The notes under the pieces: model-generated
Database searches by the model: none
Told to the model about the DNA's origin: nothing
The model's input: only the letters and a program-made list of their open reading frames with translations
From: Ceratorhiza oryzae-sativae
Lineage: Eukaryota > Basidiomycota > Agaricomycetes > Cantharellales > Ceratobasidiaceae
Length of the DNA: 64,000 nucleotides
Reading direction: 5' to 3'
Assembly (NCBI GenBank): GCA_030998015.1
Contig: JARWMV010000237.1
Coordinates: forward strand, 248,001-312,000
Program-made: the position numbers and the translations under genes
Shown: positions 968 to 45,700 of the stretch, piece by piece
How the letters are laid out: every line of letters begins with the position of its first letter
Numbering within the stretch: position 1 is the stretch's first letter

Positions 968-1234
968 TATGTTGCTTTGTCAAGGTGCACTGCTGAACAT
1001 TGCATCAAGATATGGAATGCTAATTAGGCTCCACAAACAAAAAATCCAGTATACAAGTCCATCCTGTAGCAGTTGCTCTTTAAGAAATCTTCCTGTGTCT
1101 ATTTTTTCTACCAGCTATTTCATTGATGTTAAATGTTGAGTTGGCTGTTGAGAAAAATGCTGAGCACATAGTGCACTCAGCATAGCCCACATCTATAGCT
1201 TTTATTTCTAAGCAAAAAAGAAGCTGAGCCTAAG

Positions 1235-2012
1235 TGTTATGACCCGCCTAGCAGACATAACCTAACAACCGAATATTGTACAGATTTATGGCATTTTTCC
1301 CGAAGCGGAACAAACCATAAACAGGATCACGTGATCTCGGCGCTTACCCAACGATTAAGCGCCGGTGGTTACCCTGAACTTGCTCCAGCGTTTCTCTCCC
1401 ATGTTACCTGGAGCGAGGAGCAAGTTGTCACGTGATCTCGGCGCTTACCCAACAATTAAGTGCCGGTGGTTACCCTGAACTCGCTCCAGCGTTTCTCTCC
1501 CATGTTACCTGGAGCAAGGAGCGAGTTGTCACGTGATCTCGGCGCTTACCCAACGATTAAGCGCCGGTGGTTACCCTGAACTCGCTCCAGCGTTTCTCTC
1601 CCATGTTACCTGGAGCGAGGAGCGAGTTGTCACGTGATCTCGGCGCTTACCCAACGATTAAGCGCCGGGTGCTTAAGTCCAAAGTCACATGACCCTCGGA
1701 CCTCGCGCGGCTCTATAAGATTCGGAGCTGCACAAACTTAAGACAAACAATTACCTAACCCATAGTACTGTACATAACCTACACCTACTGTGGAGTGTGC
1801 TTAGATAATACATCCGCAGCCACCGCAGCCACAGGTGTATATAAGAAGGATAAAGCAAGACTGGACACCTCAGCTTGCTTTATCTCATCAACCACCATAG
1901 ACCATAGCAAAAAACTGTAACTAGAACACTCAATACATACTGCATAGCACCAAACCGTCAACGCAGCCACTACTTAAGTGCTCCACAAGGGAGCCTCCAG
2001 AGGGTCACGACA
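1235..2012 (+). repeat. 5' LTR of chromovirus
   Basis: 778 bp, TG..CA bounded. The U3 part holds three full 101-bp tandem units. A TATA-like GTATATAAG lies near 1834-1842. The tail CCAGAGGGTCACGACA ends the LTR. A possible primer-binding site starting TGGCGAAC lies 28 bp downstream at 2041, but it is not at the usual position and I am not sure of it. Confidence 0.92.
1328..1674 (+). repeat. 101-bp tandem repeats in LTR U3 (3 full units plus part)
   Basis: Units start with CACGTGATCTCGGCGCTTA at 1328, 1429, 1530 and 1631 (the last partial), so the period is exactly 101 bp. Each unit contains two potential hairpins: GGCGCTTA..TAAGCGCC, and CTTGCTCC..GGAGCAAG with weaker inner pairing. CACGTGA at the start of each unit is an E-box-like site. 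The 3' LTR has four full units (12187-12588), which accounts for its extra 99 bp. These are probably U3 enhancer units; that role is inferred. Confidence 0.88.
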
Positions 2013-2133
2013 TTATAAAGCAAGCTCTTAACTTAACTAGTGGCGAACATAAGTATACTGCACAGATACTAAGGGCTGAGTACACAAGAAAACCAGCTAA
2101 CTCCTGTGATACATAAGAGAACACAAAGAAACT

Positions 2134-3965
2134 ATGTCACAGAGACCACAAACTCGATCTCAAAGCAGAGTGGCAAATAGTAGGCCACCATCACCCAAAC
2201 CCATTGCTTCCCCAGAGGCAGAAGGTAACCCAGATGAGACCCTCCAAGGAATGCCAGGGGGGTTGCCACAAAACCCACAACCAGTGGCTCAACCCAACCC
2301 CACTCGGGCCCCCATCCTGGGAGGGGAAATAGGGGGAATACCACTCCACAGCCCTCAACCGCCAATTCACCTGATAAATCCAGACCCAGAAGACATCTCA
2401 AATCCAGAGAGGGATGAGGTAGAAGATATGACCCGAACCATATACGAACAAGGCACAGCCTTGGCGGAAGAGGCAAGGACACAACCCCAGCCAGGTCCCG
2501 GAACCATAGCCACTGCCAACCCTATTCACACCATTGCCACGGCCATCAGGGCGGGGCTCAAGGAACTTAGAGACAATAACCATAGGAACTAGAAAAGGCA
2601 ATCACGGGTATAAATCAGTGTCAAATATCACTAACCCGACAAGAAGGAAACGTGGATTGGATGGTAAGGTCAATGGAAACATCCAACAAAAATGTCCTCT
2701 ATGTGGCAAAGAACCAGGACGACCTAAAAGCAGAAATGGGGAACCTGATAAAAGAATTAAGGGACATCTCCATGGAAATAAACCGGGTACTGGGAATGCA
2801 AGAGCGAAAGCTCGAAAGCTTAGAGAAGAAAACCGAAAACACAGGGGAGATCCTAATCGCACTAGAACAATGGGTAACCAATCTAGGAAATGAGCTCCGG
2901 AAAACAACCAAGGCAGGAAGGCCAAGGGAAAGGACAGAAGAAACCAGGGGAAGAACTAGGGTGGTCATAGGAAGCCCCTCACAATCCCCCTCAGCCTCCC
3001 CAGTACGAACACCCTTTCTGGGAAGAACCTTCCAGGCTGAATCCACAATAAGACCCCGAACAGAACCTCCATCCCAAGCAAACCAACCTACCCTTGCTGC
3101 AAACCACACTCCTAAGGAGGGGCGAGACTAGGGAGACCCAGCAAATTTAATGGAAAAAGGGGAAGGAAGCAGAGAACTTCATAATCAGCATGGAACTTTT
3201 CTTTGCTGACTATGACGAATCAGCCTTTGATGACCGAAAAAAGATATCTGCTGTGCTAATGAACATGGAGGATGGGAAGCAGCAAACTGGGCACAACCTT
3301 ACCGCCGGAAACTACTAGCAGGCGAACACACAGGTATTCTTGCATCCTGGAAGGATTTCAGGAAGGGATTCCTGGATGCTTTTAATGACCCAGTCATAAA
3401 GGAAAAGACCATCTGGAAACTAAGGAAATTAACACAGACCAAGAGTGCATTGGATTATGCTACCCAATTCCGGATCCTGATCCAAGAGGTAGACTGGAAC
3501 CAGGAAGCCCTCAAGGACCAATTCAGGGAAGGGTTAAAACCAGAAGTACGACAAGAGATCTTAAGGATTGAAGTACTGGCAAATGAGGCTGAAGGTCCAT
3601 CATATACCTTAGATCAATTAATTGACTTTGCCTGCAAAATGGACGACATGCAGTTTGCAAACCAGAAAATGAATACAAGGACCAGCAACTCATCAAATTC
3701 AACCTGGGCACCAGCGAAATACAAACAAGGGGGGAACAAGCCTTTAGGGACCAGCGGCAAACAGGGGAATACCCAAACCAACAACATGGTAAGGATACCA
3801 AACAGTGAAAAGGACAGGCGAAGGAAAGAAGGACTCTGTATCAAATGCGGTAAATCAGAGCATGTCCTGAAGGAGTGCTGAGGCCAGTGGACCTACAACA
3901 AAGCTAAGATACAAGGGAAGGCCAGCAGACAAGTTGAGGAAGAAAGCAGCTCTGAGTTGGAAAAC
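2134..3965 (+). pseudogene. gag of chromovirus, frameshifted
   Basis: Structural protein gene of the retrotransposon. The Pro-rich N-terminus reads from ATG 2134 to a frameshift near 2590. It continues in another frame through a Lys/Glu-rich, coiled-coil-like stretch (2652-3131). It shifts again into a retrotransposon gag (capsid-like) core, with typical NWAQPY and AFNDP motifs at about 3280-3400, and then runs from 3450 to 3881. A CX2CX4HX4C zinc knuckle (CIKCGKSEHVLKEC) lies at about 3838-3879 and is followed at once by an in-frame TGA. At least three breaks make it non-functional as read. The frames are easily followed, so the decay is recent or partly due to sequence errors. Confidence 0.82.
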
Positions 3966-3985
3966 TAATTGGTCCTACCACTTCC

Positions 3986-6900
3986 ATGTTGGAGGACCCC
4001 AATATAACCCCTACCGCAGATGTATGTTACCTCAAGAAGTCTAGTAATCAATCAATAATATACACTACAGTAGAGGGAATCATGGAACCAGCTAAAACGC
4101 TGATTGACTCAGGATCTTCAACCAACTTCATCGATAAGGCCTATTCGAGGGAAAAAGGGATTCCAACCACTCCCCTCAAACACAAGAAATCAATTGTGGC
4201 CATTGATGGAAATGAAATCAAGGATGCCATAGAAGAAAGGGCAGAACTAAACATCGAAGTGGAAGGGAAGACACTAAAATGCTCCCTTTATGTAATGACC
4301 CTAGGTGACACAGACATAGTCCTAGGGAAAGAATGGCTTGAAGAAGCAGAACCTATCATAGATTGGAAAGACCTTACCATCTCATACCCCGACGAAATCA
4401 AGGCAAGGGCAGCAAGTGAAAGCCTACAAATCCCAGAAGAATTTAGGGATTTTGAAGACCTATTTGGGGAAGAAGGTTTCCAGGAACTTCCACCCCACCA
4501 AGGTAACCTAGACTTCAAAATGGACCTGATCGAGGGAGCAGAGCTGCCAAAGCCTGCAAAGAGGTACAGTATGTTGCCAGCAGAAACAAAGGCGCTCAGG
4601 GAGTACCTAGAGGAGGAACTAAGAAACGGGAAAATAAGGCCCAGCCAGTCAGTTGTAGCTGCACCCTGTTTCTATGTGAACAAAGCAGATGGAGGGCTTA
4701 GGTTGGTAGTTGACTACCGTAAGATGAATGACATCACCAAGCCAGACAGGTTTCCACTTCCAATCCAAATAGAATTGATTGAGAGACTGAAGGATGCAAC
4801 CATCTATTCAAAAATGGATGTTCGATGGGGGTTCAACAACATCAGGGTAAAAGAGGGAGACAAATGGAAAACAGCTTTCAGGACAGGAGAAGGCCAGTTT
4901 GAATGCTTGGTCATGCCATTTGGAGTAAAAGAAGGACCAAGAACCTTTACCAGGTTCATGATGGAAAAATTCCGTGATATAATAGATGATTATGTGGTAA
5001 TCTACATGGACGATGTACTAGTGTTTTCCAGAAACAGGGAAGAGCATGTACAACATGTCAGGGAAGTGTTAAGAAGAATGAGGGAAAACCACCTCTTCCT
5101 CAAACCACACAAGTGTCAGTTCTTTGTGAAGGAGGTAAGCTTCATTGGAATTGTCATATCCCCAGAAGGGATATCGATGGAAAAGGAAAAGGTAAAAGCA
5201 GTTCTAGAATGGCCAGAACCTAACACAATAAAAGAAGTCCAAGCCTTCCTAGGCTTTGTGGGGTTCTATAGAAGGTGGATAGAGAAGTTTAGTACCTTAG
5301 CCAAACCCCTCACAGATCTCACCCAAAAAGATTTCAAATTCCTGTGGGAAAGAAAACAACAGGAAGCATTTGAAGCTATCAAAGAAGCAGTAGCAAAGAG
5401 AACCGGTCCTGATCCACCCAAAACCGAACAGGCCATACATACTGGAAACCGACGCCTCAGGAGTGGCCATGGGGGCAGTACTAAGCCAAAAGGGTGATGA
5501 CAACTGATTGCATCCAATTGCCTTCTGTCAGAGCTACAACCTGAACAGTAACGTCAAACACCTAAGTTGTCATGGCCTAGACCATGACGCAGATTTTATT
5601 ATGATTTTTGTATATTTTATAAAATCTCTCCTTTTCATATTTTTGGACAAGTCCTGTTTAATCGGATATATGCATAGAATTACTTACATGATCACGTGAC
5701 CTTGTTGTTGTTTACGTTCTGTTTGTACCTTCTGGAATATTCCGTTACATGGCACCATTCTCACATCATACGATAGTTGTCTCGCACCATATGTGTATTT
5801 GATATAGCTCATCATATGAATATATAAGGGAGAGTCTGAGAGCCTTAAGCCTCAGAACTCGACCTCCTGTCGTACCCCTTCTACTACCTGTGTGACTTAC
5901 CAGTCCATAGTCCCTGCCCAGTCCTCTTAAGGACAAGTGCACCTACTACCCTACTTCCTTGTGCCTTATCGCACCTTCACTGCACGTCCCACCTTAGACG
6001 TTGTCAGTAAAGCCTCCGGCATCGCTGCCCATAGGCTTGTCATCACCACTTATGTCAGGGCTACGACCTGAACAGGAACGTCAAACACCTAAGTGGTGAT
6101 GACAAGCCTATGGGCAGCAATGCCGGAGGCTTTACTGACAACGTCTAAGGTGGGACGTGCAGTGAGGGTGCGATAAGACGCAAGGAGGTAGGGTAGTAGG
6201 TGCACTTGTCCTTAAGAGGACTGGGCAGGGACTATGGACTGGTAAGTCACACAGGTAGTAGAAGGGGTACGACAGGAGGTCGAGTTCTGAGGCTTAAGGC
6301 TCTCAGACTCTCCCTTATATATTCATGGCCGAGGCAGTACAAATCAAATACCAGGACCAATAAGAAGCTAACAGTGCCATGTCACTACAGAACATTCCGG
6401 TAACACCAAACATTGAGTCAACAACAACAGGGTCACGTGACATGAAGGTAAATAAACCGCATATATCTGAATAAACGGGACTTGTCCAGAGTATCGTAAA
6501 AGGAAGTTATAAAATATAGAAAATTCATAATAAAATCGTGCTCATGGTCTAGGCCATGACACTTCCTATCGAAGAGTTTCACCCCACCAGAGAAAAATTA
6601 TGACACCTACGACAAGGAGTTGCTTGCAATTGTTAGGTCCTTAGAGCACTGGAGGTTATACTTAGAAGGGACAGAGGAACCTATTGTGATATACACTGAC
6701 CATAGGAACCTCCAGTACTGGCAAAATGCCCAGATGTGGAATAGAAGGCATGCCAGATGGTATCTCACTCTGGCACCCTTCAATTTTCAGATTGTGTATA
6801 GACCAGGGAAACTCTCACAGAAGCCAGATGCCCTTTCCAGAAGGAGCGACCATGGGGATACCCCTATGGAACCACAGATCATGATTCCAGAAGAAAGGTT

Positions 6901-8439
6901 CATAGGTTTCATGGCAGAAGTACAGGGGAATTTCTGGGAAGAGCTTAAAGAAGCTCAGGAAGAAGACGAATCTATCAGATCCTTAAGGCTGAGTGTGGCA
7001 AATAAAGAACAACTACCACCCTCAGTACAGAAGGAATTTAGACGGTATGAAATGAAGGAGGGCCTATTAAGGTATGACGATAGGCTCTACATCCCGGATG
7101 ACAAGGACTTGAGGTTGAGTCTCCTTGAGGAGTGCCATGACGCCCCAGTGGCAGGTCATCAGGGACAAGCCTGAACACTAGAATTACTATCAAGGGATTA
7201 CTATTGGCCAGGAATGAAGGCCCAAGTAAACCGATACGTGGAATCTTGTGAAACGTGTCAAAGAAGCAAAGGACACAAACAAGGCACTCCCCTGAAGTCC
7301 TTACCAATCCCATGGAAACCATGGGCAGATGTCGCATATGATTTCATTGTCAAATTACCTGTCTCAAAGGGGTACGACAGTATCTTGACAGTTGTAGATT
7401 GCTTCTCCCAGCAGGCCCATTTTGTACCATGTCTGGAGAGCACCAATGCAGAAGAACTGGCAGAAATATTCATAAGGGAAGTATGGAGACATCACGGGAC
7501 CCCAGAAACCACTGTCTCAGACCGAGGGCCAACCTTTAACAGCCAATTCCTAAAAGCCCTATACAAAGGAATTGGGACAAAGCCCAGATTCTCCACTGCT
7601 TTCCATCCAGAAACAGATGGTCTGTCGGAAAGGACAAATCAATGGGTAGAAGGGTTCTTAAGAACCTTCTGCAATTATAGACAAGATGATTGGGTAAAAT
7701 GGTTACCCATTGCTGAATTCTGCCATAACAACCACGTAAATGCTACAACAGGACAAACCCCATTTGAAACAGTATATGGAAAAAACCCAAGATGGGTTGT
7801 CCGAGAGGAGAAGAACCGTCTGAGGCACCCGCTGCAGACAACATGCGTAATCAAATGGAAAAGGTATGGGATGAGGCAAGAGCCTCAATGGAATTACACC
7901 AACAAATGGAAAAGAAAGGGAGGGAATTCAAGGTAGGAGACAAGGTTTGGCTGCTCCTAACAAACCTCTTGTCCAAGAGACCCTCCAAGAAACTGGACAA
8001 CCGAAAAGGGGGGCCCTTTGAAATCACAGAAAAGATCTCATCCCATGCATATCGCCTGGACCTACCTAAAACCATACGTGTACACAATGTATTCCATGTA
8101 AATCTCCTCTCGCCATTCACAGAAGATAAAGACTTCCAAAGAAGGCAGGCCAAACCACCACCAATCATAACGGAAAAAGGAGAGGAGGAATACAAGGTGG
8201 ACCACATTGCAAATTATGAATGGCGGAATGGCGAGTTGTTTTACCAAATCAGATGGAAGGGCTACGACCCAATAGAAGACACAATGGAACGTGCCAGCAA
8301 GTTTGCTGACATGAAAGAGGTTCTAAATGACTTGCAAAGGCACTTACCAGACGCACCAATGCCAGTCAAGACAAGTCAGCACTCAGGTGACTCGAAAGGC
8401 AGGCCAAAGAGAACCAAACGAGGATCTGGAAAGCTTTAA
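3986..8439 (+). pseudogene. pol of chromovirus: PR-RT-RNase H-INT-chromodomain, broken
   Basis: Polyprotein for reverse transcription and integration. The aspartic protease has LIDSGSSTNF near 4095-4130. RT runs from about 4540, with LVVDYRKMN and an intact catalytic YMDD at 5001-5012. The frame shifts near 5395, just before the RNase H start. RNase H is then split after HPIAF by the 5526-6561 insertion and resumes at 6566 with SKSFTPPEKNYD and YTDHRNLQYW. The integrase zinc region ends in an in-frame TGA (7172-7174) and reads on from 7214 with CETCQRSK. The catalytic region shows YDFIVKLP, SDRGP and SERTN, the D,D,E positions. A further frameshift lies near 7795. The chromodomain (about 8185-8350) has the aromatic FYQIRWKGYD core. 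The insertion, a stop and two shifts make it inactive. Confidence 0.92.
5526..6561. mobile_element. Inverted-repeat (fold-back) LTR derivative inserted in RNase H
   Basis: This 1036-bp insertion is flanked by CTTC at 5522-5525 and 6562-6565, a 4-bp target duplication; removing it reconnects the RNase H frame. The right part (6053-6561) is a full 509-bp solo LTR in minus orientation, TGTCAGGG..CCATGACA on the plus strand. The left part starts with a 41-bp copy of that LTR's plus-strand left end (5526-5566) and continues as the reverse complement of the rest of it (5568-6052). The result is two arms of about 485 bp and a 37-bp centre. It has no coding capacity. The TATA-like TATATAAGGGAG of the LTR appears near 5820 and, inverted, near 6315. 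A rearranged LTR or TRIM-like fold-back fits. Confidence 0.85.
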
Positions 8440-8526
8440 AAGGAGCCATCCAGGATACCTAAGAGAGTCCAGAGCCTGCTCTACTACCTCACTTGCACCA
8501 CAACACACCTGCGAAACCCCAAAAGC

Positions 8527-9345
8527 ATGCCTTTCGTCACTCACCCAATCGCACATCCCAACCATTACACCCCACTTGCCGAAAATCAGGTGGCCCCACT
8601 TTGGCAGCCACCCACCACCAGGCGGCCAGCACCCTACCCTGGCAGGGAAAATCGTCCTAAACCAGGGATGTACTGCTCCAGTGTGGAAGACGCCCAGAGG
8701 TATGCCGAACGACTGTTGCCAGGGGCTAACCTACTGTACATCCCAAAGAAGTTAAGGGATGAAAGGAACTGGATTGACGATGACAAGTACCTGGATCCCA
8801 GGTTAGGGGTCCTGACATGGCATGGAAGCCGGAAGCCAACGACGAGAAACGCCTTGTTAAGAACACCAATGTATGTCGTCGACAATATTGTGGGACCAAC
8901 AGTCGATGTGGTGACCAAGGCAGCAAGGCAACAGAGGAGGGCCACAGGCCAAATACCAGATGGAGGGGACTGGGAGGTGGAGCGCCGGGCAAAGGCACTG
9001 TTGGAGCAGTGGAAGCTGGCACCGGTGGCACCGTATGTGGGACTGCTTGAGGCCACTACCACTGATGAAATGTTTACTGCCATCAGGTTGAAGGAAGCAA
9101 ACTTGGCCGACTTCCGTAACTGGGTGAAGGTACGCCCAAACCTGCACGGTTACGACACAGATATGTCGAGCCTCACGGCAAGCCTGGAGTCCCTGGTGGT
9201 GAAGGAGGAGGAGCCGAGAGTAACGATAAAGGAACCAACCCCGGACCTGGCCCAAGAGGGAGTCCAAACGGATTGGGCCAAATGGGAGGATGAGCTGGCG
9301 GGCGCCTTGGAGGAAGTGCCCCTGCTGGCCCCGGAGCCCCTGTGA
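8527..9345 (+). CDS. Hypothetical protein, 272 aa, retrotransposon cargo ORF
   Basis: I do not recognise the family. The frame is open from ATG 8527 to the TGA ending at 9345; a second ATG at 8668 may be the true start, because the first 47 residues are Pro/His-rich and low in complexity. The body is soluble, with charged and aromatic stretches such as WIDDDKYLDPRLGVLTWHG, and ends in an acidic tail. I see no signal peptide and no membrane segment, which argues against an envelope protein. It lies 87 bp after pol, is visibly GC-richer than pol, and converges with the antisense ORF at 9426-9967. It could be part of the same acquired module as Rep, for example a structural or accessory protein. 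That is inference. Confidence 0.55.
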   Translation: MPFVTHPIAHPNHYTPLAENQVAPLWQPPTTRRPAPYPGRENRPKPGMYCSSVEDAQRYAERLLPGANLLYIPKKLRDERNWIDDDKYLDPRLGVLTWHGSRKPTTRNALLRTPMYVVDNIVGPTVDVVTKAARQQRRATGQIPDGGDWEVERRAKALLEQWKLAPVAPYVGLLEATTTDEMFTAIRLKEANLADFRNWVKVRPNLHGYDTDMSSLTASLESLVVKEEEPRVTIKEPTPDLAQEGVQTDWAKWEDELAGALEEVPLLAPEPL

Positions 9346-9425
9346 TTATTGGGCCTATCACACGTCTTTTGGAATGTCTTAAGAATAATTTTCATAATCA
9401 TATAATAATACATTTCAAAATGTTT

Positions 9426-9967
9426 CTATTTTTTCTTGCCCTTGAGGGGCCGGGTATAGGGTTTTTTTGCCTTCTTATCCTTCCTAGTAGTGCGGGCCGC
9501 AGAACCACCGGCCCGGTTCTCAGGCAACAGCCAGGGGGCCTCCCCCCCTGGGAGATTGGCCATATAGTTCTGGAAACATCCAGAACCAGAAGCTGCAAAG
9601 GGTGAGGCCTTGTCGAACAAAGGGGCCGAGCCCTCCTCAAAAAACTCAGCAAGGGCAGCCTGGTGTTGCCGCTCCTCAAATAACCGGCAGTCCTGATCAA
9701 CGAGCGCCCAGACACGCTCAAGGGTGGCCTCATGGGCCCGACCATCAAGGAGGATGCGCTCTTCTACAGAACAAGTTAGCCACATGAGAACGACGAAGAA
9801 CGAACACACATACTGGGCACCCCACAGAAGAACCAGTCCCCAACACCTCGATAGAAGTCTTCAAGGGAGGCGTCGCACACAGCATCACAGTAGGTGCAGT
9901 ACTCCCCCTCAGGGAGAGACCAGCAGGTGCAGTCAAGGGGATTGTAGTTAAGGGAAATAACACGCAT
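9426..9967 (-). pseudogene. Antisense Cys-rich ORF, probably one gene with a frameshift
   Basis: On the minus strand an ATG at 9967 opens 63 codons with a cysteine cluster (DCTCWSLPEGEYCTYC, then further Cys). Close to 9810 the neighbouring frame takes over and stays open to 9426, another 127 codons including an acidic middle (RLFEERQHQAALAEFFEEG) and a Lys/Arg-rich tail. The two blocks overlap, so one frameshift would make a product of about 180 residues; this may be decay or a sequence error. I recognise no family. The gene is divergent from Rep across a 540-bp intergenic region and convergent with the 8527-9345 ORF, resembling an ambisense layout. The basic tail could bind nucleic acid; this is inference. 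Confidence 0.4.
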
Positions 9968-10506
9968 AGTAAAGACAGGATGAGGAAGGAAAACAACAAA
10001 ACCACGAACATTAAAAAATCACAGTGCAACACAATAACGTGCACAAACATCAAAACAAGGTCTGGTCAGGTGACACCAACAGACATGTGACCATCTGCCA
10101 GAAAACAAACAACAAAGCACAGGAATCACATGACCTAGCCTAGTCACGTGACCACCTGCCAGAAAAACAAACAACAAAGCACAGGAATCACATGACCTAG
10201 CCTAGTCACGTGAATATACGCTATCCCCTAACTACCGGAGGGGTCGGAGAGGGGGCACCGACCGAAGTGGGGGAGCGGAGGCCCCGAGCGTAGCGAGGAT
10301 CAAGGCCGACGCGGAGGAACGGATGGAAGGGCACCCCTCGGAGATGCGTCATCACCGGAATAAGGTCATGTGATCACAACAAATGCAAGACGGAGTCATG
10401 TGACGATCAAAACGGACCTTGCAGCTTATATAGACAAGCACAAGGCCCGAGATAACCCGCACTCTCATGCTCTCCTCCCAGTCCCCAAATATCTCTAAAA
10501 CCGTAA
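9968..10506. promoter_or_regulatory. Divergent intergenic region with repeats, hairpins and TATA box
   Basis: Lies between the 5' ends of the antisense ORF and Rep. From left to right it holds the 61/62-bp tandem duplication (10087-10209) and two overlapping potential hairpins. The first is CCCCT (10225-10229) with AGGGG (10239-10243) and a 9-nt loop. The second is GGTCGG (10242-10247) with CCGACC (10258-10263) and a 10-nt loop. A TATA-like TTATATAG lies at 10426-10433, about 75 bp before the Rep ATG. I do not see the TAATATTAC-type nonanucleotide of known CRESS viruses. Use as a replication origin is a hypothesis; use as a promoter is more likely. Confidence 0.45.
10087..10209 (+). repeat. 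61/62-bp tandem duplication
   Basis: Two nearly identical copies start with GTGACCAYCTGCCAGAAAA at 10087 and 10148, and a third GTGA begins at 10210. They differ by one C/T change and one extra A. Each ends with CACATGACCTAGCCTAGTCA. The second and third boundaries carry CACGTGA, the same E-box-like site found in the LTR repeats. Confidence 0.85.
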
Positions 10507-11796
10507 ATGATGCTAAGCGGAAATGGATCGAACGCGGCAACACCCCAGCCAAGCGGATCAAGCGAAGGGCAGAGGTCGGCGTCGCCATTGCCAGCGCCCT
10601 TGGTATCAAGCCGAGCCCCCTCACCCGCTTCTATGCGGCCTACGCCGATGGATCAAGGGTCCGAAGAGCTGACCGAAACCGTGCCAGCCCCTCGGTTCCG
10701 TGTCCAGACCAGGGCGGTGCTGCTGACCTGGTTGAAGCTACACGATCAGCCCTCAAGTGGGCTCGTCGCCCAATACAAGGCGTTCTGCTGCCAACGGCCA
10801 AATCATTGGGCGACTTTGGCAGTGGTGGAACGCCACAACCCTGAGGAACCAAACTACGACCCGGCCTGGCCCCTCCATGTCCACGCCCTCTCCATCAGTC
10901 AGGAGCGGAAGGGCGGCTGGAACACCCAGAACACCCGGTTCTGGGACTTCGAGGGGCAACACCCCAACATCCTGCCAAAGGACCTCAAGGACGGACCAGG
11001 AGGCAACCCTGCAAGGGAGGCTTTCAACTACCTCTGGAAGGATGTCGGAGCTAACGGCAAGGAGGTAGAGGAGCTGATGGCGGGGGACCTGACCTTGGAA
11101 AGGTTGGAGGAAATCCTGGTGAAGGGGAAGGGCAGGAAAAGGTCGAGGGCAGAGGCGGACCTGGAGGACGGGGCAGAGATTGTTGCCTCAGCGACAAAAA
11201 AAGACTACTACCAGGCATTCAAGCGCCTGCGCCCCCTCCAGATGGTGACGACGTGGAACTTGGTACGAGCATATGCTGAGTACACATATAAGGAGGACCG
11301 GGGATGCATGCCTGCAATCCTGGTGGAGTTGGAAGTCCCAGAAGACCAGGCGCACATCGACAGGGCGGACCGATGGTTTGCGGAAGAGGCTGAGAAGAGA
11401 GGGAGGGGCGTGCGCCATCGCATCCTGGTGATCGAAGGCGAAACAGGAACTGGGAAGACGGCGTATGCGTGATCCAAGGGCTCCCATAGCCGGATGTGCA
11501 ACGTCTGGAACGTGGGGAATCTGTCGGAGGACGCCAACATCTGGATCCTGGATGACATGGTCCAGTCAAACGGGAAGTACTCGCTCAAAGCCCTGAGCCA
11601 GTACGAAGCAGACTTCACAGGCAGATATGCTCATGTGAAGTCAATGAAGGTACGGCCAACGGTGATCCTGGGGAATAGCCGGTCAGCCATAATGAAGTGT
11701 TGGACGGACATAGAGGGGGAAGAAGGGGACTTATGGGTATCCAAAAACGTAGACTGGGTATACTCAGGAGGGAAGCCATTTTTTATTTTTCCTTAA
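10507..11796 (+). pseudogene. Rolling-circle replication initiator (CRESS-DNA/geminivirus-like Rep), one in-frame stop
   Basis: Rep proteins nick and join single-stranded DNA at an origin and unwind it during rolling-circle replication. In the 321-codon first part I see motif I VLLTW (71-75), the HUH motif LHVHAL (123-128), the catalytic Tyr motif YLWK (175-178) and Walker A GETGTGKT (311-318). Three codons later a TGA (11470-11472) stops the frame. The same frame continues without further stops to 11796 and shows Walker B ILDDM (about 11545-11559) and motif C VILGN with the sensor Asn. That is the complete endonuclease plus superfamily 3 helicase order. The first about 65 residues are Ser/Pro-rich and unlike the core. 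The gene is GC-richer than pol, has its own TATA box, and lies between chromodomain and 3' LTR, where fungal Ty3 elements normally have nothing. Acquisition from a CRESS virus or plasmid is inferred. Confidence 0.85.
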
Positions 11797-11896
11797 AAAA
11801 TAAAAATAAATTATCTTTGTATAAGCTGTTTTATTCACAGACCATGTGTCGAGAAGTAAGCTTAAACAAGGAAATAAGCAAGGAGAAAGTAATCTC

Positions 11897-12021
11897 ATGT
11901 AGCGTAGAGGTTAAGGGGTCTAGCCTGACTCATCATCTCCTAGCTAATCAATCACACATCGAACAGAAGGTCGTTGGTTCGAGTCCAGCGCCCTTAACCT
12001 CCTCGATATATGAGATACCTT
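11897..12021 (+). other. tRNA-like pol III unit (box A, box B, T-run)
   Basis: TAGCGTAGAGG at 11900-11910 fits box A, and GGTTCGAGTCC at 11976-11986 fits box B almost perfectly; a TTTT run at about 12018 could terminate transcription. The T arm GTTGG-TTCGAGT-CCAGC folds well. The rest does not make a standard cloverleaf: an 11-bp perfect inverted repeat (GAGGTTAAGGG at 11907-11917, CCCTTAACCTC at 11991-12001) competes with the acceptor stem, and the 70-bp box spacing would need an intron. It is probably a tRNA-derived relic or SINE-like piece, not a working tRNA. Confidence 0.35.
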
Positions 12022-12079
12022 TTAGAAACTTTTAGAACCCAGAAAAGAAACATGCCTCGAGATCCCCCAAGACATGTCC

Positions 12080-12093
12080 AAAGGGGGGGATAA
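12080..12093 (+). other. Polypurine tract of chromovirus
   Basis: The run AAAGGGGGGGATAA directly precedes the 3' LTR, the expected place of the plus-strand primer for reverse transcription. Confidence 0.8.
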
Positions 12094-12970
12094 TGTTATG
12101 ACCCGCCTAGCAGACATAACCTAACAACCGAATATTGTACAGATTTATGGCATTTTTCCCGAAGTGGAACAAACCATAAACAGGATCACGTGATCTCGGC
12201 GCTTACCCAACGATTAAGCGCCAGTGGTTACCCTGAACTTGCTCCAGCGTTTCTCTCCCATGTTACCTGGAGCGAGGAGCAAGTTGTCACGTGATCTCGG
12301 CGCTTACCAATGACTAAGCGCCAGTGGTTACCCTGAACTTGCTCCAGCGTTTCTCTCCCATGTTACCTGGAGCGAGGAGCAAGTTGTCACGTGATCTCGG
12401 CGCTTACCAACGACTAAGCGCTGGTGGTTACCCTGAACTTGCTCCAGCGTTTCTCTCCCATGTTACCTGGAGCAAGGAGCGAGTTGTCACGTGATCTCGG
12501 CGCTTACCCAACGATTAAGCACCAGTGGTTACCCTGAACTCGCTCCAGCGTTTCTCTCCCATGTTACCTGGAGCGAGGAGCGAGTTGTCACGTGATCTCG
12601 GCGCTTACCCAACGATTAAGCGCCGGGTGCTTAAGTCCAAAGTCACATGACCCTCGGACCTCGCGCGGCTCTATAAGATTCGGAGCCGCACAAACTTAAG
12701 ACAAACAATTACCTAACCCATAGTACTGTACATAACCTACACCTACTGCGGAGTGTGCTTAGATAATACATCTGCAGCCACCGCAGCCACAGGTGTATAT
12801 AAGAAGGATAAAGCAAGACTGGACACCTCAGCTTGCTTTATCTCATCAACCACCATAGACCATAGCAAAAAACTGTAACTAGAACACTCAATACATACTG
12901 CATAGCACCAAACCGTCAACGCAGCCACTACTTAAGTGCTCCACAAGGGAGCCTCCAGAGGGTCATGACA
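12094..12970 (+). repeat. 3' LTR of chromovirus
   Basis: 877 bp, otherwise nearly identical to 1235-2012. It carries four full 100/101-bp U3 units starting at 12187, 12288, 12388 and 12488, plus a partial one at 12589; the 5' LTR has three. It ends GGTCATGACA and is followed by the duplicated CTAAG. Confidence 0.92.
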
Positions 12971-12975
12971 CTAAG

Positions 12976-15873: not shown

Positions 15874-16257
15874 TGTTGACAATGACAAGTCAGGTGACAA
15901 GGAAAATAGTAAGAAAAGAAAGAACTTGTATTCAACGAGAGGTCAAGTTCTTGAGGAGTCATCTGCAAACTTGACCTGGTTTATATACATGCTATGAGCC
16001 ACATCATAACAAACAAGTCTGTACAGTGAGTCACAACTGATAAGAGATAGAAGCAATAGAAGCAATAGAAGTGACTGCGGAACTGCAGAATTTCACATCA
16101 AAGTTGAAATTCATCTTGGTTATTGGTCCAGAACATTCCCTGAATCACATGACACAGATATACCATAAAAGGCAAGTATGTTTTGAACATGATCTCATAA
16201 AATGTAATAAATCAAGAAAATATTATAGAGTGGATATGTGCATGTCAGTTTGTGACA
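15874..16257 (-). repeat. 3' LTR of minus-strand element
   Basis: 384 bp; on the minus strand it begins TGTCACAAACTGACATG and ends TTGTCAACA (TG..CA). The polypurine tract GAAGGGGGGAAG read on the minus strand (16258-16269) abuts it. Confidence 0.9.
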
Positions 16258-19200
16258 CTTCCCCCCTTCAAGGCACAAGGGTCATGGGGTGCCTTTGGAT
16301 GTGACTTGACATAGTCAGCCATGAGTTCTGGTGTGTTTACCAGGTCATTGTAAGTTAACCATTGTTGTTCGTCATAACTGAGCCATTTGACATAGTATTC
16401 AAAGATATTAGACCTTTTGTTGTATTGCAACTTTATGATCTGTTCCACTTCAAATTCTTCTTCCCCTTCAGGAGTTACCACTGGTGGTGATGGGGGAACC
16501 TGACACCCATAGGGGTCATCTTTATATTTGGTCAGGAGTGAAACATGAAATACTGGGTGTATTTTCATGGTTATTGGCAAGTCCAGTTTGAAGGTGTGGG
16601 TGCCGTGTTGTGCTATCACCTTGAATGGTCCAACTCTCTTGTGGGCCAGTTTCCTGGAGGCTTGTTGTGTCTGTATGTTCTTGGTGTCAAGCCAGACCTT
16701 GTCCCCAGCCTTGATGGCTTCTGGGGTCTGATGTTTTTGGTCATAGTATTCTTTGATCCTCTGGTTTGATATCTCCAGAGCAGCCTTCAGTTCATTGTGA
16801 CCTTTTTGAAGCCATTCTGCATGGTTGTCTGCTAAGGGGAGCTCTTGTCCCTCCCTGTCCCCAACTGCCAATCTTGGGTGGAACCCATAGTTTGCAAAGA
16901 ATGGTGATTTGCCAGTTGAGGCATTGACACTGTTGTTGTAGGCAAATTCAGCCAATGGTAAAAGAGAGACCCAGTTGTCCTGCCAGTCTGATACATAATG
17001 TCTGATGTATCCTTCTACTACTTGGTTAGCCCTTTCAGATTGGCCATCCATTTGAGGGTGGTATGCTGTAGAGTAGGAGGGTTTTATATCCAGCTGTTTG
17101 TACAAGTGCCTTAAAAATTTGGATGCAAAGTTGGGGCCATGGTCTGAAATGGTTTTTTGTGGTAACCTGTGAAGTTTCCATACATAGGTTAGGAACAGGT
17201 TGGCACAATCCATAGCACTGGCTTCTGATTGACATGGAATAAAGTGGACCATTTTTGTCAGGCAGTTGACAACTGTAAATATGGCATCAAACCCTTCCGA
17301 CAGGGGTAGCCCAGTGATCAGGTCATAGGTAATTTCCTCCCAAGGCTTTTCCAGTGCTGGTATTTGGTTTAGTAATCCTGGGGGAACTTGGTTGCTGTGC
17401 TTGTTCCTGATACAGGATTTGCAATGTGTAATGTATTTGTTGACTGATTTTTTCATTGATGACCATGTGTATTTGCAGCTTAACAATTTGTATGTTCTGA
17501 ACTGCCCAGGGTGTCCTGCTGCAGGGTTATCATGATGACTTTCAATGACCAGCTTGCAAAGTTCTTTGTTATTTGGGACATAGATTTGGCCCTTGTATTG
17601 TAAAAGTCCTTCATCCCACTCCCAATTTTTGACCTTCTCATTATTGTCTAGGGCTTTCAGCACTTTTGATAGGTGCTCATCCCCTGGAATTGCATCCCTA
17701 ATGAGTTGTTCCAGATCATGGTCCAGTGTGATTGCTTGTAGCCACAGCGATTTTAATTCCAAAAATTGATTTTGTGCAAGCAGAGCTTGGCTCTCACTCC
17801 CCTCTTTAGGGATGTGCCTTGATAGCCTAGAGAGTATGTCTGCCTGGCCATTCTTTGCCCCTTCAATGTATAGGATTTTGAATTCAAACTGGGATAGGAA
17901 TTCATGCCATTGTGTTACTCAGCCATTCAGTGGCCAGTTTGTTTTCCAGTACTCTAAGTTTTTGTGATCACAAACAATGTTTACTGGGTGTTCAGCCCCT
18001 TCTAGCAAGTGACACCAGTGTTTGAGGGCTTTTATGATTGCCAGCATTTCTTTGTTGTAGATATCATAGTTCCTTTCTGCCAGAACCATAGCTTTAGAGT
18101 AGTAGGAGATTGGGTGGAGCAATCCATCTTCTCTGTATTGCAATAGTACAGCACCTGTGGCATAGCCTGAGGTGTCTGTTTCCAGAATGAATGGTTTGCT
18201 GGGTTCTGGCTGAATTAGGAGGGGGGCTTCCTTTAATTTCTGCTTCAGCAAGTTCCATGTCCAATCCCTTTCTTCTGTCCATTCCCACTTTACATCCTTC
18301 TTGACAAGTTCATAAAGGAATTTTGTGATTTTTGAAAAGTCCTTTATGAAGTGCCTTAACCAGTTTGCAAACCCCAGCCCTTCCAGGACTTCAGTTGGGT
18401 TGGTAGGGGTTGGCCATTCAACAGCTTTTTCAACCTTGGCTGGGTCTACTTTAATTCCCTGGGGAGTCACTACTATTCCCAGGTAGTCCACTTTGGTGAC
18501 ATCAAAAACACATTTCTCCAGGGTGCAGTATAGGCCAGCCTTTTGGAGACAACGCAAGACTTCTCTGACATGTTCGTCATGTTCTTCTTGGTTTTTTGAG
18601 AATACTAATATGTTGTCCATGTAAATTATGACATAAATGCCTTCAATGTCCTGGAATTCCTCTTGGATCATAGCCATGAAGGTTCCTGGTGCATTCTTTT
18701 GGCCAAATTGCATGACTAAGGGCTCATACAGCCTGTATTTGGTCTTAAAAGCAGCCTTCCATTCATCTCCTTCCTGAATTTGTATAAGGTTGAAGCCCCA
18801 CTTTAGATCAAACTTGGTGAATATCTTTGCCCCATGCAAAGTCTCCACAATATCATTGATGCGTGGGAGTGGGTACACATTGGAGACAGTCATTTCATTT
18901 AGCCACTGGTAGTCAATGCACATGTGCAGCTTCCCATTCTTCTTTTTAACAAATATGACTGGGGATGCCATTGGTGACCTTGAGGGTCTGATATGCCCTG
19001 CTTTCAGTTGGCAGTCCAAGGTCTTGTGCAATTCCACATCTTCCTTGACACCCACACTATATATAGGGCCATGCCTTGGCTTAGCATCTGGTTTTAGATC
19101 TATTTCCATGTCCCACTTCCTATGGGGTGGTAATGGCTGGACATTGTCTTCTTCACCAAATATTTTCTTGAACTCTCTATATTTTGCTGGGAGTGAGTCT

Positions 19201-19775
19201 AAGGAGTCCAACTGGAGCTCCTTGGGTTTGTTTGCTCACACATGTAAGGGTTTTGTGATGCAGTGCTTCAAACATATTGGCAAGTTGAACTTCATGTCTT
19301 TTCCATCCCAATCAATGTTGGGATTATGGAATTTGAGCCATGACATGCCCAGGACTAAATCATTTTTGCCAACGTTCACTATGTAAGCACTGAGAATTTC
19401 TTGGTGCTCCTGAATGCACAACTCAAAGGTGCAATAATGGGTAACAGACCCAGAGTCAATCTCCCTTCCATTGATTACTCATAGTCTTTTTGGTGTTTTT
19501 AGGGAGACAGTAGGAATATGGTATTGTTTAACCAGATATTCATGTATAAATACTGATGTGGCCCCTGAATCAATCATGGCCCATCTGTTGAATTTTTTCA
19601 TATTATATGCAGACTTGTGTTCAGGGGTTATGTGCAGAGGGAATGCATGAAAGAAAAATTGAAGTTGTGATTGGTTTCCTAACAACATACATTCCATTTC
19701 CATACTTTTATTTTCATTCTGCACATTTTGTAACATAGCACCCAAGACCGCCCCCCTGGCATGGTTTGAGCTCAT
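16245..19775 (-). pseudogene. pol of minus-strand element: PR, RT-RNase H, INT-chromodomain
   Basis: The protease lies in 19236-19775, with the active-site motif MIDSGATSVF. RT-RNase H is open from 19211 to 17919 with PRINDIVETL and a YMDN in place of the catalytic YMDD (around 18616-18627), a change that abolishes a metal-binding aspartate. The frame stops at about 17920 inside RNase H. The integrase frame (17762-16245, 505 codons) has an HHCC finger (HCKSCIRNKH region), the catalytic D,D,E positions YDLITGLP, SDHGPNF and QSERANQ, and a C-terminal chromodomain-like FEYYVKWLSYDEQQW. The reading stop lies just inside the LTR. Together the stops and YMDN make it inactive. Confidence 0.9.
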
Positions 19776-21008
19776 TCTTTTACCAACTCATTGTCAGTTG
19801 TTTCTACATCCTCTACAACCACCTTGTAACCTGACATCTTGGCTGAGGGACATTTGGCAGCAATGTGGCTGCGCCCCCCACAGTTGTAACAGGTGTTTGT
19901 CCCTTTTCCTTTTCCTGCGCTGTCCAGGTCCATTGTGTCTGGATCTTTTGCCTTGGGGGCTGCTGGCAGGTGGTTATCCTTCTTTATGTCCTTAAAGGAC
20001 TCTTGTATGTTGGAGTTGCTGCCATCATACCAGATGGTAGGAACCGTGAAACCCTTGGCGTTGGGCCCAATGGCAATAATTTGCCCTTTTACTGCCCTGC
20101 CATCCTTGATCTTGTATATTTGTTCCCCATTCCTAAACTTTTCCTTTTGGGGGCTGCTTTGGGAGGTGGTTGTTGGCTTGCTGGACAAGGCATTATTGCT
20201 ACTAGATTTGTTGCCTCCATGGGTCATCCTTTTGCTACTGAATGAGATAAGGTGACAGTCAATTTCCAGGGCCTGCTGTGTTAGCTGGGCAAATGTCTTT
20301 GTGCAGGGATCATAATTTTGGGCCACTATGCTGTCTGTTACATCAGATGACAGGCCATCATAGAACTGATCATGCATGGCTGCATTGTTGTAATTGAGCC
20401 CAGTCAAGTATTGGTTGAACAGAGTGAGGTAGTCTTGGACCATCTTGGATTGTTTCAGTTTCCACCATTTATCACAGTTATTTTCAGTATGGTTCAAGTC
20501 CCCATAATGAGTGGTGAATTCCTGCCAAAACAGGTTGGCATTGTGAAGCCATGGCATTGCAGTTCCTGGGTTTGGGATTTCAAATTCTTCATAGGAATTG
20601 ACCCATTTGGCTGCAGACCCTTCAAGATAAGATGTAATAAAGGCAACCACTTGATCAGCCAAATGCCCACTCATGTTTGTATTGATGTATCAGGCACATG
20701 CGATTCTGAATGAAATAGCATCTTCATGCTTTGTGCCATTGAATTTTTGTGGGGCAGCCATTTTGACCTTTGCAGTTGATCTGCTTGCAGGACTGGTGGT
20801 TGCTGGTTTGTAGCTGGGTCATGCTGGAGGAAGGTTGTACTTGGGCAACTCCTGTGCCCCCCAAGGAGGTATTGATTTGTGCTTCAATGCGCATGATGGT
20901 GGTTTGAAGGATTGCTAACATGCTGACTAGGTTGTTAATGTTGGTAGCCAACCTGGCCACATCAGCATCTATTTTTGTTTGATTTGTTGTGAGCTTTGCT
21001 TCAAGCAA
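19772..21008 (-). pseudogene. gag of minus-strand element
   Basis: The N-terminal coiled-coil-like part (21008-20724; repeated Thr/Leu/Ile heptads such as NINNLVSMLAILQTTI) is separated by a short break from the gag core (20674-19772). The core has the retrotransposon gag motifs AAKWVNSYEEF and FWQEFTTHYGD and a C-terminal CX2CX4HX4C knuckle, CYNCGGRSHIAAKC. The gag end overlaps the start of the protease frame by four bases, as expected for adjoining gag and pol. It probably forms the particle; this copy is broken. Confidence 0.83.
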
Positions 21009-42751: not shown

Positions 42752-45700
42752 CTACGAGCCCATATGAATAAAAGGTGCCCATCGCCCAACCGCCTCCACC
42801 CCAACCTTTTCACGTAGTGCCGCGACTGCCTTGTGAAGTGCCCTCGCGGTCTGCGTGTGATCCATCCTCCCGTCCTTGGTAAGCTCCGCGTACACACCCT
42901 CCGCTATCCTTGGCGCATCTTCGTCTTTGATCGACCACATCGTGGCGATGACACTCCGATATCCCGCTGTAAGCATACCGGCTGCTAAATGAGTCGATTC
43001 TCCTGGTAGCTTTGAATCTCCAGTGGCGGTCTGGCACGCAGATAAAAAGGCGAGACCCTTGTTCTTGAATGCTCGCTTGGCTATTTCGTCCAGGGTGAGC
43101 TTCCCATCGTGTAGATGGAAAGCGCTTTGGCGAGGGTTCAAGGTGTCCTGACTCCCATGGCACGCGAAATGCACCCAGTCATTCTCTTCCATGGCCTCAA
43201 GCGTAGACTGGATGGTTGCGGACGAGCCAGTGAGCTCGCAATAGTTATTTGGTTCGATATGCTGCTTGATAATATTGAGTTCTGTTACGGTTTGTGGCAG
43301 CGGAGCTTGCCCGGGTGACGCAGCTTGTCCAACTGCCAATAGCCCACACTGGGGCTGGATCGACGGTGGGGTGGGCGAGAGTAATGCGCCGATGGTTGGC
43401 GTGTAAGAGGAAACGACGAGGTCAAAAGCGTTTGGCGATCGGCCATCGTATCGTCCTGCGGCATGAAGAGGCAACAATAATAATGCCCCGCTAGCGCACC
43501 ATGTGACGTGAGGGAGCACGTCCGAAGTATCTTTATTCTAGAAGTTATTGGTGAGATAATTAGAAATTTGGATCCGTAGAGGGCCATGCTTACGATTCCC
43601 AAAATTGCATCTAAAACTGGACCCACCACATCTGACCAGAGCGATTTGAAGATTTGTAGAGGGTCTTCGGATTTACGCGTGAATCCACGAGCCAAGTGAC
43701 TCTGCTCGCCGCTACGATAGAGGCTGTTGCTCTGCGCAAGTAGATGTCCGCATTTCGCTGAGGAAAATCCTGGTAGCGGCACATGAACCATATCCTCCAC
43801 CCCTGGCATGATGATAAGAGCGTCGCAACGTACGTCATGAGTGTTGATCAACACAACTGGACCATCTCGAGCGGCCGTTCGAAGGATCTTTGCCTTTGTT
43901 GGTAATAAAAATTCTTCAAACCCAGGAAGCTGGCGAGCTTCCGCGACAAGTTTCTCCCAACGACCCGCGAGTTTATGGTGGCGTTGGGTCAGAGACTCAG
44001 TGTTTACCATGTTCTCGGGGGTTAATTCGACTGTGTAAGAAGAGGAGGAGATCGCGTCCAGCTGAGAGGCGGTGTCTTTCAGATTGTTGGCTAGCTCAGC
44101 GCTCACTTCGGCAAGATCATCGAATGGCGTCCGGAGCTGTAACGTCTGTTTCCAAATGACTGAGCAGCCTTGTTCGAGCCACTCTAGAGCAATGTCACGT
44201 AAGTTGGTGGAAAATGCCCAAGCAGCAGCTTCCGGCACAAACTCGCTGATGGTAGTCAAGATGGAGTATCGTGCTTGGGCAGTTTGTCCCAACCAGATCA
44301 ACTTGGGCAAAAGCGCAAATGAAGTACTATAAGCTTCAAGTGGAGAAAACTCAAGTAGAGATAATGTGTCTGCCCATCGCCGAGCACAATCAAACTGAAC
44401 GCGAGGTTGGCCAACCAATGATCTCGCACCCCGCCCGAATACAACAGAAGCGGTCTCAAGATCTTGGGAATCCTTGGACACGATATATCGAATCCGATAA
44501 CTATTGCCGAGGTTGTCAGGCAGTAGGCCAGTCTGGATACCTTCTGAAGTGAGATTGACTGCGTGCACTTGACATGCGAGCGCATTGTCCAAGTCGGTCA
44601 TGTCGCCCAGTCGCTCAAATCGACGACGCTGTGTGATCCCAAGGTTGTTCAGACAAGTAGGCTTGTCTGGATGGCCGCCTGGAGTGAGATTGACTGCGTG
44701 CACTTGACATGCGAGCGCATTGTCCAAGTCGGTCATGTCGCCCAGTCGCTCAAATCGACGAAACCATGCGTTTCCAAGGTTGTTCAAATAACCAGCCTTA
44801 CCGGCGGCCATATGGAGTCAGTTCTACGCTTGCGCTAGATATGCGAGCGCATTGTCCAAGTCGGTCATGTCGCCCAGTCGCTCAAATCGACAACACCATG
44901 CGCTTCCAAGGTTGTTCAGGCGACTAGGCTTGTCTGGATGGCCGTCTGGAGTGAGATTGACTGCGTGCACTTGACATGCGAGCGCATTGTCCAAGTCGGT
45001 CATGTCGCCCAGTCGCTCAAATCGACAACACCATGCGTTTCCAAGGTTGTTCAAATAACCAGCCTTACCTCGGCGGCCATATGGAGTCAGTTCTACCGCT
45101 TGCGCTAGATATGCGAGCGCATTGTCCAAGTCGGTCATGTCGCCCAGTCGCTCAAATCGACAACACCATGCGTTTCCAAGGTTGTTCAGGCGACTAGGCT
45201 TGTCTGGATGGCCGTCTGGAGTGAGATTGACTGCGTGCACTTGACATGCGAGCGCATTGTCCAAGTCGGTCATGTCGCCCAGTCGCTCAAATCGACAACG
45301 CTGTGTGATCCCAAGGTTGTTCAGGCGACTAGGCTTGTCTGGATGGCCGTCTGGAGTGAGATTGACTGCGTACACTTGACATGCGAGCGCATTGTCCAAG
45401 TCGGTCATGTCGCCCAGTCGCTCAAATCGACGAAACCATGCGTTTCCAAGGCTGTTCAGGCGACTAGGCTTGTCTGGATGGCCGTCTGGAGTGAGATTGA
45501 CTGCGTGCACTTGACATGCGAGCGCATTGTCCAAGTCGGTCATGTCGCCCAGTCGCTCAAATCGACAACGCTGTGTGATCCCAAGGTTGTTCAGGCGACT
45601 AGGCTTGTCTGGATGGCCGTCTGGAGTGAGATTGACTGCGTACACTTGACATGCGAGCGCATTGTCCAAGTCGGTCATGTCGCCCAGTCGCTCAAATCGA

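Follow-up and report, generated by a model that had tools for sequence, protein, structure and literature searches.

A Ty3/chromovirus LTR retrotransposon occupies positions 1235-12970 of the window, by which we mean the whole 64,000-nucleotide stretch of Ceratorhiza oryzae-sativae DNA analysed here, and is bounded on both sides by the target-site duplication (TSD) CTAAG (Table 1). Its domains run in the order gag, PR-RT-RH-IN and, past the integrase, a chromodomain, which fits a Ty3/Gypsy chromovirus. Across 777 aligned bases, the two LTRs show 13 differences; both hold tandem repeats of ~101 bp with the string CACGTGA, and the 3′ LTR is the longer by ~100 bp. The primer-binding region pairs with what is presumably the 5′ end of the RNA made from the element itself, which suggests that Tf1-like self-priming, a recognised mechanism, may be used here in place of a tRNA primer. 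The ~1 kb insertion in pol of the window copy carries long inverted repeats (240 bp, 98%). An initial annotation of this DNA had described intact LTRs with a target duplication; the LTR pair and the CTAAG duplication stand, with the correction that pol of this copy is broken by the insertion.

The element shares gag, PR-RT-RH-IN, SH3, chromodomain, LTRs, a 5-bp TSD and apparent self-priming with the Ty3/Gypsy chromoviruses (Metaviridae). Unlike them, it adds at its 3′ side a module of ~3.3 kb that comprises ORF1, an antisense ORF2 and a Rep-like gene. Elsewhere in the window, a second, different Ty3-like element with pol-like frames (seen by eye) lies on the minus strand at 16245-20689, where no Rep frame was seen, and long repetitive frames at 42752-47010 resemble tetratricopeptide repeats with a CHAT-like end, again as recognised by eye.

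Table 1 Features of the retrotransposon and its 3′ module, in window positions
Feature	Position	Strand	Details
5′ copy of TSD CTAAG	1230-1234		Same string at 12971-12975
5′ LTR	1235-2012	+	TG...CA, 778 bp
Primer-binding region	2013-2030	+	12 nt complementary to LTR 1872-1883, ~30 bp past a TATATAA box
gag, capsid part and start of CCHC	3234-3881	+	Retrotrans_gag 1.6e-11
Protease and reverse transcriptase	3956-5497	+	RVP_2 1.3e-9, RVT_1 6.4e-34
~1 kb insertion in pol of the window copy	5526-6561		Long inverted repeats; absent from copies L032 and L033
RNase H and integrase	6560-7936	+	RT_RNaseH 1.5e-21; Integrase_H2C2 1.6e-12 (above cut-off); rve 2.3e-6 (28.2 bits, below cut-off 32.6)
Integrase C-terminal SH3 and chromodomain	7768-8439	+	SH3_Tf2-1 1.8e-20 (above cut-off); Chromo 1.5e-5 (25.2 bits vs cut-off 25.1)
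ORF1, accessory protein, no known family	8527-9345	+	dN/dS 0.22-0.23 in two comparisons
ORF2, antisense spliced gene model, 163 aa	9426-9967	-	50-nt intron 9764-9813
Intergenic region, ORF2 and Rep diverging	9968-10506		50-bp direct repeat at 10102 and 10164; TATATA at 10427
Rep-like gene	10507-11796	+	429-codon frame in relatives; one internal TGA in this copy, 11470-11472
HUH-endonuclease-type motifs I, II, GRS and III	10720-11040	+	By motif positions; motif tables in the consulted parts of PMC8703526 and PMC8621823
SF3-helicase-type Walker A, Walker B and motif C	11437-11676	+	TGA falls between A and B
Conserved imperfect hairpin with tRNA-like A-box and B-box strings	11892-12018	+	Boxes recognised by eye
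Polypurine tract	12080-12089	+	Read from sequence
3′ LTR	12094-12970	+	877 bp, one additional internal repeat of ~100 bp
3′ copy of TSD CTAAG	12971-12975		Read from sequence

The 3′ accessory module

Family searches with ORF1 and with the unspliced ORF2 frame revealed no resemblance to a known family. The tail of ORF1 taken alone gives a weaker signal of constraint (34 synonymous changes of 64, p 0.002). Outside the window copy, 32 loci span the ORF2 intron; all of them retain its GT..AG ends, and 30 retain a CTAAY branch-point string. Among the seven most divergent copies of each exon, dN/dS is 0.14-0.22 for exon 2 and 0.05-0.37 for exon 1; the group-level counts, made on the unspliced frame, are weaker (synonymous, non-synonymous and stop changes of 20, 15 and 2; 14, 6 and 1; 6, 7 and 1). 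Putative purifying selection on ORF1 and ORF2 is less strongly tested than that on Rep.

The divergent layout of ORF2 and Rep recalls the ambisense arrangement of CRESS genomes. A search of 8300-12200 for the CRESS nonanucleotide found none, and the intergenic region holds no perfect stem of at least 8 bp. Between Rep and the polypurine tract, the outer stem of the imperfect hairpin is kept in both of the main Rep subfamilies (A and B, below) and the central part differs; over 35 sequences and 34 pairs, 12 of 1190 cells are broken and two pairs show two-sided changes. A tRNA gene at this site was considered and rejected: ARAGORN predicted none in the window and none at ordinary intron settings, and a very permissive setting produced hundreds of low-quality predictions. 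Rfam at gathering thresholds gave nothing in the window.

The Rep-like gene and its copies

In the window copy, the Rep-like frame consists of 10507-11472 plus 11473-11796, split by a single in-frame TGA. Motif positions were read from a gap-free relative and then checked on the window sequence, which places LLTW at 10720, LHVHA at 10873, the HPNI-type GRS motif at 10936 and YLWK at 11029, followed in the helicase half by GETGTGKT at 11437, ILDDM at 11545 and VILGN at 11662. Walker A and Walker B are of SF3 type and motif C ends in Asn. Five aligned Rep copies, chosen for being open, show no variation in the Tyr motif, the HUH motif, Walker A, Walker B or motif C. The initial annotation had read motif I and these five motifs in order, in one frame save for the TGA, with no word of the GRS motif, and had placed the gene between the chromodomain and the polypurine tract; every motif was recovered, and the position is correct.

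When the protein of a naturally open copy was shuffled 200,000 times, no shuffle matched a relaxed ordered-motif pattern that had been drawn up with the sequence already in view. The pattern also matched none of the 23 window ORFs of at least 200 aa, among which counts the window's own interrupted Rep frame, itself unable to match. According to the consulted parts of PMC8703526 and PMC8621823, the GRS motif was originally described in geminiviruses and, in genomovirus Reps, falls after motif II and before motif III. When scored with a table built from eight published genomovirus GRS strings, the GRS site of the Rep-like frame ranks first of 66,423 six-frame window positions (31.9 versus 18.8 for the next), and the best score in 20 shuffled windows is 20.5.

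Sequence searches of Pfam, PHROGs, NCBIfam and the PDB returned no significant Rep match. Gemini_AL1_M matched below threshold in four of the nine full-length natural Rep proteins scanned, with E values of 0.053, 0.12, 0.17 and 0.21 at which unrelated families score equally well or better; these four alignments span nearly the entire profile, and the best reaches 14.1 bits against a cut-off of 24. Whole-genome runs gave three weak matches for Gemini_AL1_M and 19 for RNA_helicase, none at the listed Rep loci, and the Gemini_AL1 and Viral_Rep profiles gave no match in this genome but also none in 14 control genomes. Two of the weak Gemini_AL1_M matches away from the listed loci lie in 111-aa frames (G000:C242:160346-160474, 15.7 bits; C68:68292-68420, 15.1 bits), possibly another Rep-like family or chance. 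Single-sequence structure models of Rep were of too low confidence (pLDDT 38.8 and 52.9) to judge an HUH fold, and a fold search with the latter gave no significant match. No relatives were found in IMG/VR by exact peptide patterns or in phage and plasmid records by tblastn, collections that may contain few eukaryotic CRESS viruses; nine IMG/VR loci retrieved by a generic P-loop pattern were judged by eye not to be Reps. The full geminivirus/circovirus-like Rep architecture proposed in the initial annotation is thus borne out in its motif order and finds no significant counterpart in the profile searches, an outcome which that annotation had itself named as counting against it. Rep is still the best assignment for this protein, one that rests on the ordered motifs and on the GRS motif above all, and we call the gene Rep-like by its motifs and not by profile.

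We then surveyed the genome (48.8 Mb in 253 contigs) and found at least 40 close Rep copies at 94-100% DNA identity (182 candidates, 40 of them scored). In each of the 30 loci fetched, that of the window among them, Rep adjoins the 3′ LTR of the element. Starting from reverse transcriptase, Rep lies downstream of pol in 37 of the best 40 of 276 candidates: 16 by comparison of lists, four by fetched DNA (L031-L034) and 17 of 19 further slices. The 16 list-based pairs are separated by 3.9 to 12.6 kb, five of them by more than 4.3 kb, so that nested insertions or a neighbouring copy are possible in these. The other three loci were undecided (a slice that ended just upstream of Rep, a slice occupied by other DNA and a contig end), and none of the best 40 was shown to be without Rep. 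Of these 30 fetched loci, half (15) retain an uninterrupted frame that is 420 codons or longer.

The copies fall into subfamily A (window-like, 33 copies clustered), subfamily B (13 copies, ~88-90% DNA identity) and a third group, C, with ~84% identity. Group C (L047, L052 and L061) is our own designation, the clustering having held L052 and L061 apart and omitted L047 for coverage. A one-off insertion of Rep is ruled out, the block being multi-copy and common to element copies. The proposal that Rep travels with the retroelement agrees with the genome at large, where the gene recurs in other copies and is open in half of the fetched loci; the alternative that all other copies lack the block is excluded for those examined.

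Selection and mosaic structure

The sites that separate A (33 copies) from B (13 copies) comprise 65 synonymous and 16 non-synonymous changes (p about 5e-18), measured against a neutral expectation of 33% synonymous that was derived from the copies' own private changes. These private changes fit neutrality, with 32 synonymous, 54 non-synonymous and 1 stop in A and 32, 52 and 2 in B. A count with fewer B copies gave 72 synonymous to 17 non-synonymous. Because the changes between subfamilies are strongly synonymous and those private to single copies look neutral, Rep was under purifying selection while the element multiplied.

When the most divergent copies are compared with the window copy, the constraint is unevenly distributed along the gene. 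From motif III on (11029-11793), dN/dS is 0.05-0.08 at a dS of 0.79-0.94 (seven most divergent of 46 copies); values for the seven most divergent copies are 0.10-0.15 over the whole frame (of 47) and 0.25-0.92 before motif III (of 51). Since no diagnostic site separates A from B in 10468-10950, the endonuclease region (10701 to 11060) was tested between A and C, which gave 24 synonymous, 12 non-synonymous and 2 stop changes (p 1.6e-4), C being represented by three decayed copies only. The Ser/Pro-rich N-terminus before 10701 shows little constraint. The helicase half bears most of the selection signal, and the N-terminal part is less constrained.

An overlapping frame at 10434-10844 starts at the first ATG past the TATATA box. 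Among the 43 copies that carry no indel in 10516-10842, 27 keep this frame open. Dual coding at the N-terminal end of Rep was considered and is not supported: the overlapping frame looked constrained in some pairwise A/B counts, but it lacks both diagnostic A/B differences in 10468-10950 and an excess between A and C. From 10701 on, the constraint lies in the Rep frame only.

Divergence between element copies varies along their length. Between the window copy and L032 and L033, it is 0-4% from ~6800 to 8900, 18-36% from ~8950 to 9550, 3-6% from ~9850 to 10750 and 13-31% from ~11050 into the 3′ non-coding sequence. At the 3′ side, L031, L034 and L035 differ from the window copy to a similar degree (12-32%), and L034 is window-like (1-4%) at 9292-9892. 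Overall, A and B diverge by about 1-4% in pol and by 12-36% in parts of the 3′ third, and the LTRs of B copies match at ~84-87% over the longer alignments. This mosaic points to recombination between old retroelement lineages. As the A/B divergence extends into the 3′ non-coding sequence and the LTR, the synonymous changes of Rep most likely accumulated inside the retroelement lineage and not in a free virus.

Possible roles and related systems

These data support a Rep-like gene that is maintained by the retrotransposon. The explanation that we prefer, tentatively and with slightly less than even confidence, is a Ty3/chromovirus element of several subfamilies that carries, past pol and ahead of the polypurine tract, a stable accessory module: ORF1, the antisense spliced ORF2 and a geminivirus/genomovirus-type Rep, the last made from its own promoter and copying element DNA. 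Following reverse transcription, Rep would act in the nucleus on unintegrated circular or double-stranded cDNA, which it would nick and copy by a rolling-circle route, and the outcome would be more substrate for the integrase. The likeliest action of Rep would be directed at unintegrated forms of the element's DNA in the nucleus, through nicking or rolling-circle copying, and an RNA-based mobile element may in this way be using the replication enzyme of a DNA virus. A further-reaching version seems doubtful to us: a hybrid replicator, in which an LTR lineage permanently adopted a single-stranded DNA virus module (Rep, the intergenic region and the divergent partner gene) and now multiplies in two ways, by way of RNA and by a DNA copying of its own circles that Rep drives.

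The chief rival reading, which we regard as unlikely, is that Rep interferes with other replicons. It would here serve in defence by binding to origins or to Rep complexes and blocking them, whether they belong to a rival element or to related single-stranded DNA viruses of fungi, and an element without an obvious origin is what would be expected if Rep targets other DNA; purifying selection, for its part, is compatible with any beneficial function. A pure inhibitor, however, would need fewer motifs than the Tyr, HUH, Walker A, Walker B and motif C sites that are all invariant in the five aligned copies (picked as open), and a benefit to the host does not by itself account for Rep in so many copies of the element. 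Selection might instead have acted outside the retroelement, on a free Rep-bearing replicon that was captured repeatedly and imported its divergence. The contrast between pol and parts of the 3′ third in A and B (about 1-4% against 12-36%) would suit such captures, which we nonetheless hold to be improbable: the divergence continues through the 3′ non-coding sequence into the LTR, and in A, B and C copies alike Rep occupies the same position or keeps the distance from reverse transcriptase that one would expect, in line with recombination among lineages of the retroelement.

There is likewise little probability that the protein is not a Rep but an unrelated P-loop protein with coincidental N-terminal motifs and another role for the element. 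Seven motifs in an order that 200,000 shuffles failed to reproduce, together with a GRS site far above all other sites in the window, argue against this, and the want of a significant match in Pfam, PHROGs, NCBIfam, the PDB or the genome-wide profile runs is what speaks for it. The initial annotation had left room for Rep as passive cargo, a viral gene captured once that hitch-hikes without function. Rep is indeed broken in the window copy and in half of the 30 copies fetched, but the comparison between copies disfavours this option, and the 65 synonymous to 16 non-synonymous changes between subfamilies, beside private changes that look neutral, make it very improbable.

The Rep-like gene resembles the Reps of Geminiviridae and Genomoviridae (Repensiviricetes) in its motif order, in the GRS motif and in a partner gene that diverges from a common intergenic region, as far as the consulted parts of PMC8703526 and PMC8621823 describe them. 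It departs from them in having no significant profile score and no nonanucleotide found, in being housed in a retroelement, and in its motif III (YLWK) and motif C (ILGN), which differ from the examples tabulated in those parts. The nearest case in the open-licence literature searched is a geminivirus-like transposon of the terminal inverted repeat (TIR) type in the truffle Tuber melanosporum, where 42 Rep genes or remnants are counted (Liu et al. 2011, PMC3198968). That transposon has 37-bp TIRs; its two transposase ORFs are damaged, its Rep frame is interrupted and no TSD is obvious. Both are multi-copy fungal mobile elements with a geminivirus-like Rep, whereas the element here is an LTR retrotransposon with gag-pol and a TSD, in which Rep is open in many copies and is under selection. 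The truffle paper also reports that several endogenous viral sequences reside within host genes or transposons, and the terms "LTR" and "retrotransposon" occur nowhere in the text consulted (Liu et al. 2011, PMC3198968). In the open-licence PMC literature we found no Rep inside an LTR retrotransposon, which is no proof of absence in print.

A more distant comparison is with the Helitrons. These eukaryotic mobile elements possess an HUH protein and in this resemble the element described here, whose Rep carries HUH-type motifs; they differ in that their Rep-Hel is a large fusion with a helicase of a different type and in that they have no LTRs.

Retroelements are customarily set apart from DNA replicons that copy themselves by a rolling circle. 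Purifying selection on a Rep-like gene within an LTR retrotransposon shows that a class I element can maintain a protein of the DNA-replicase type as a functioning accessory gene, and the multiplication of such elements as DNA, besides RNA, becomes testable. The gene would also offer a tangible path by which single-stranded DNA viruses and retroelements could exchange material.
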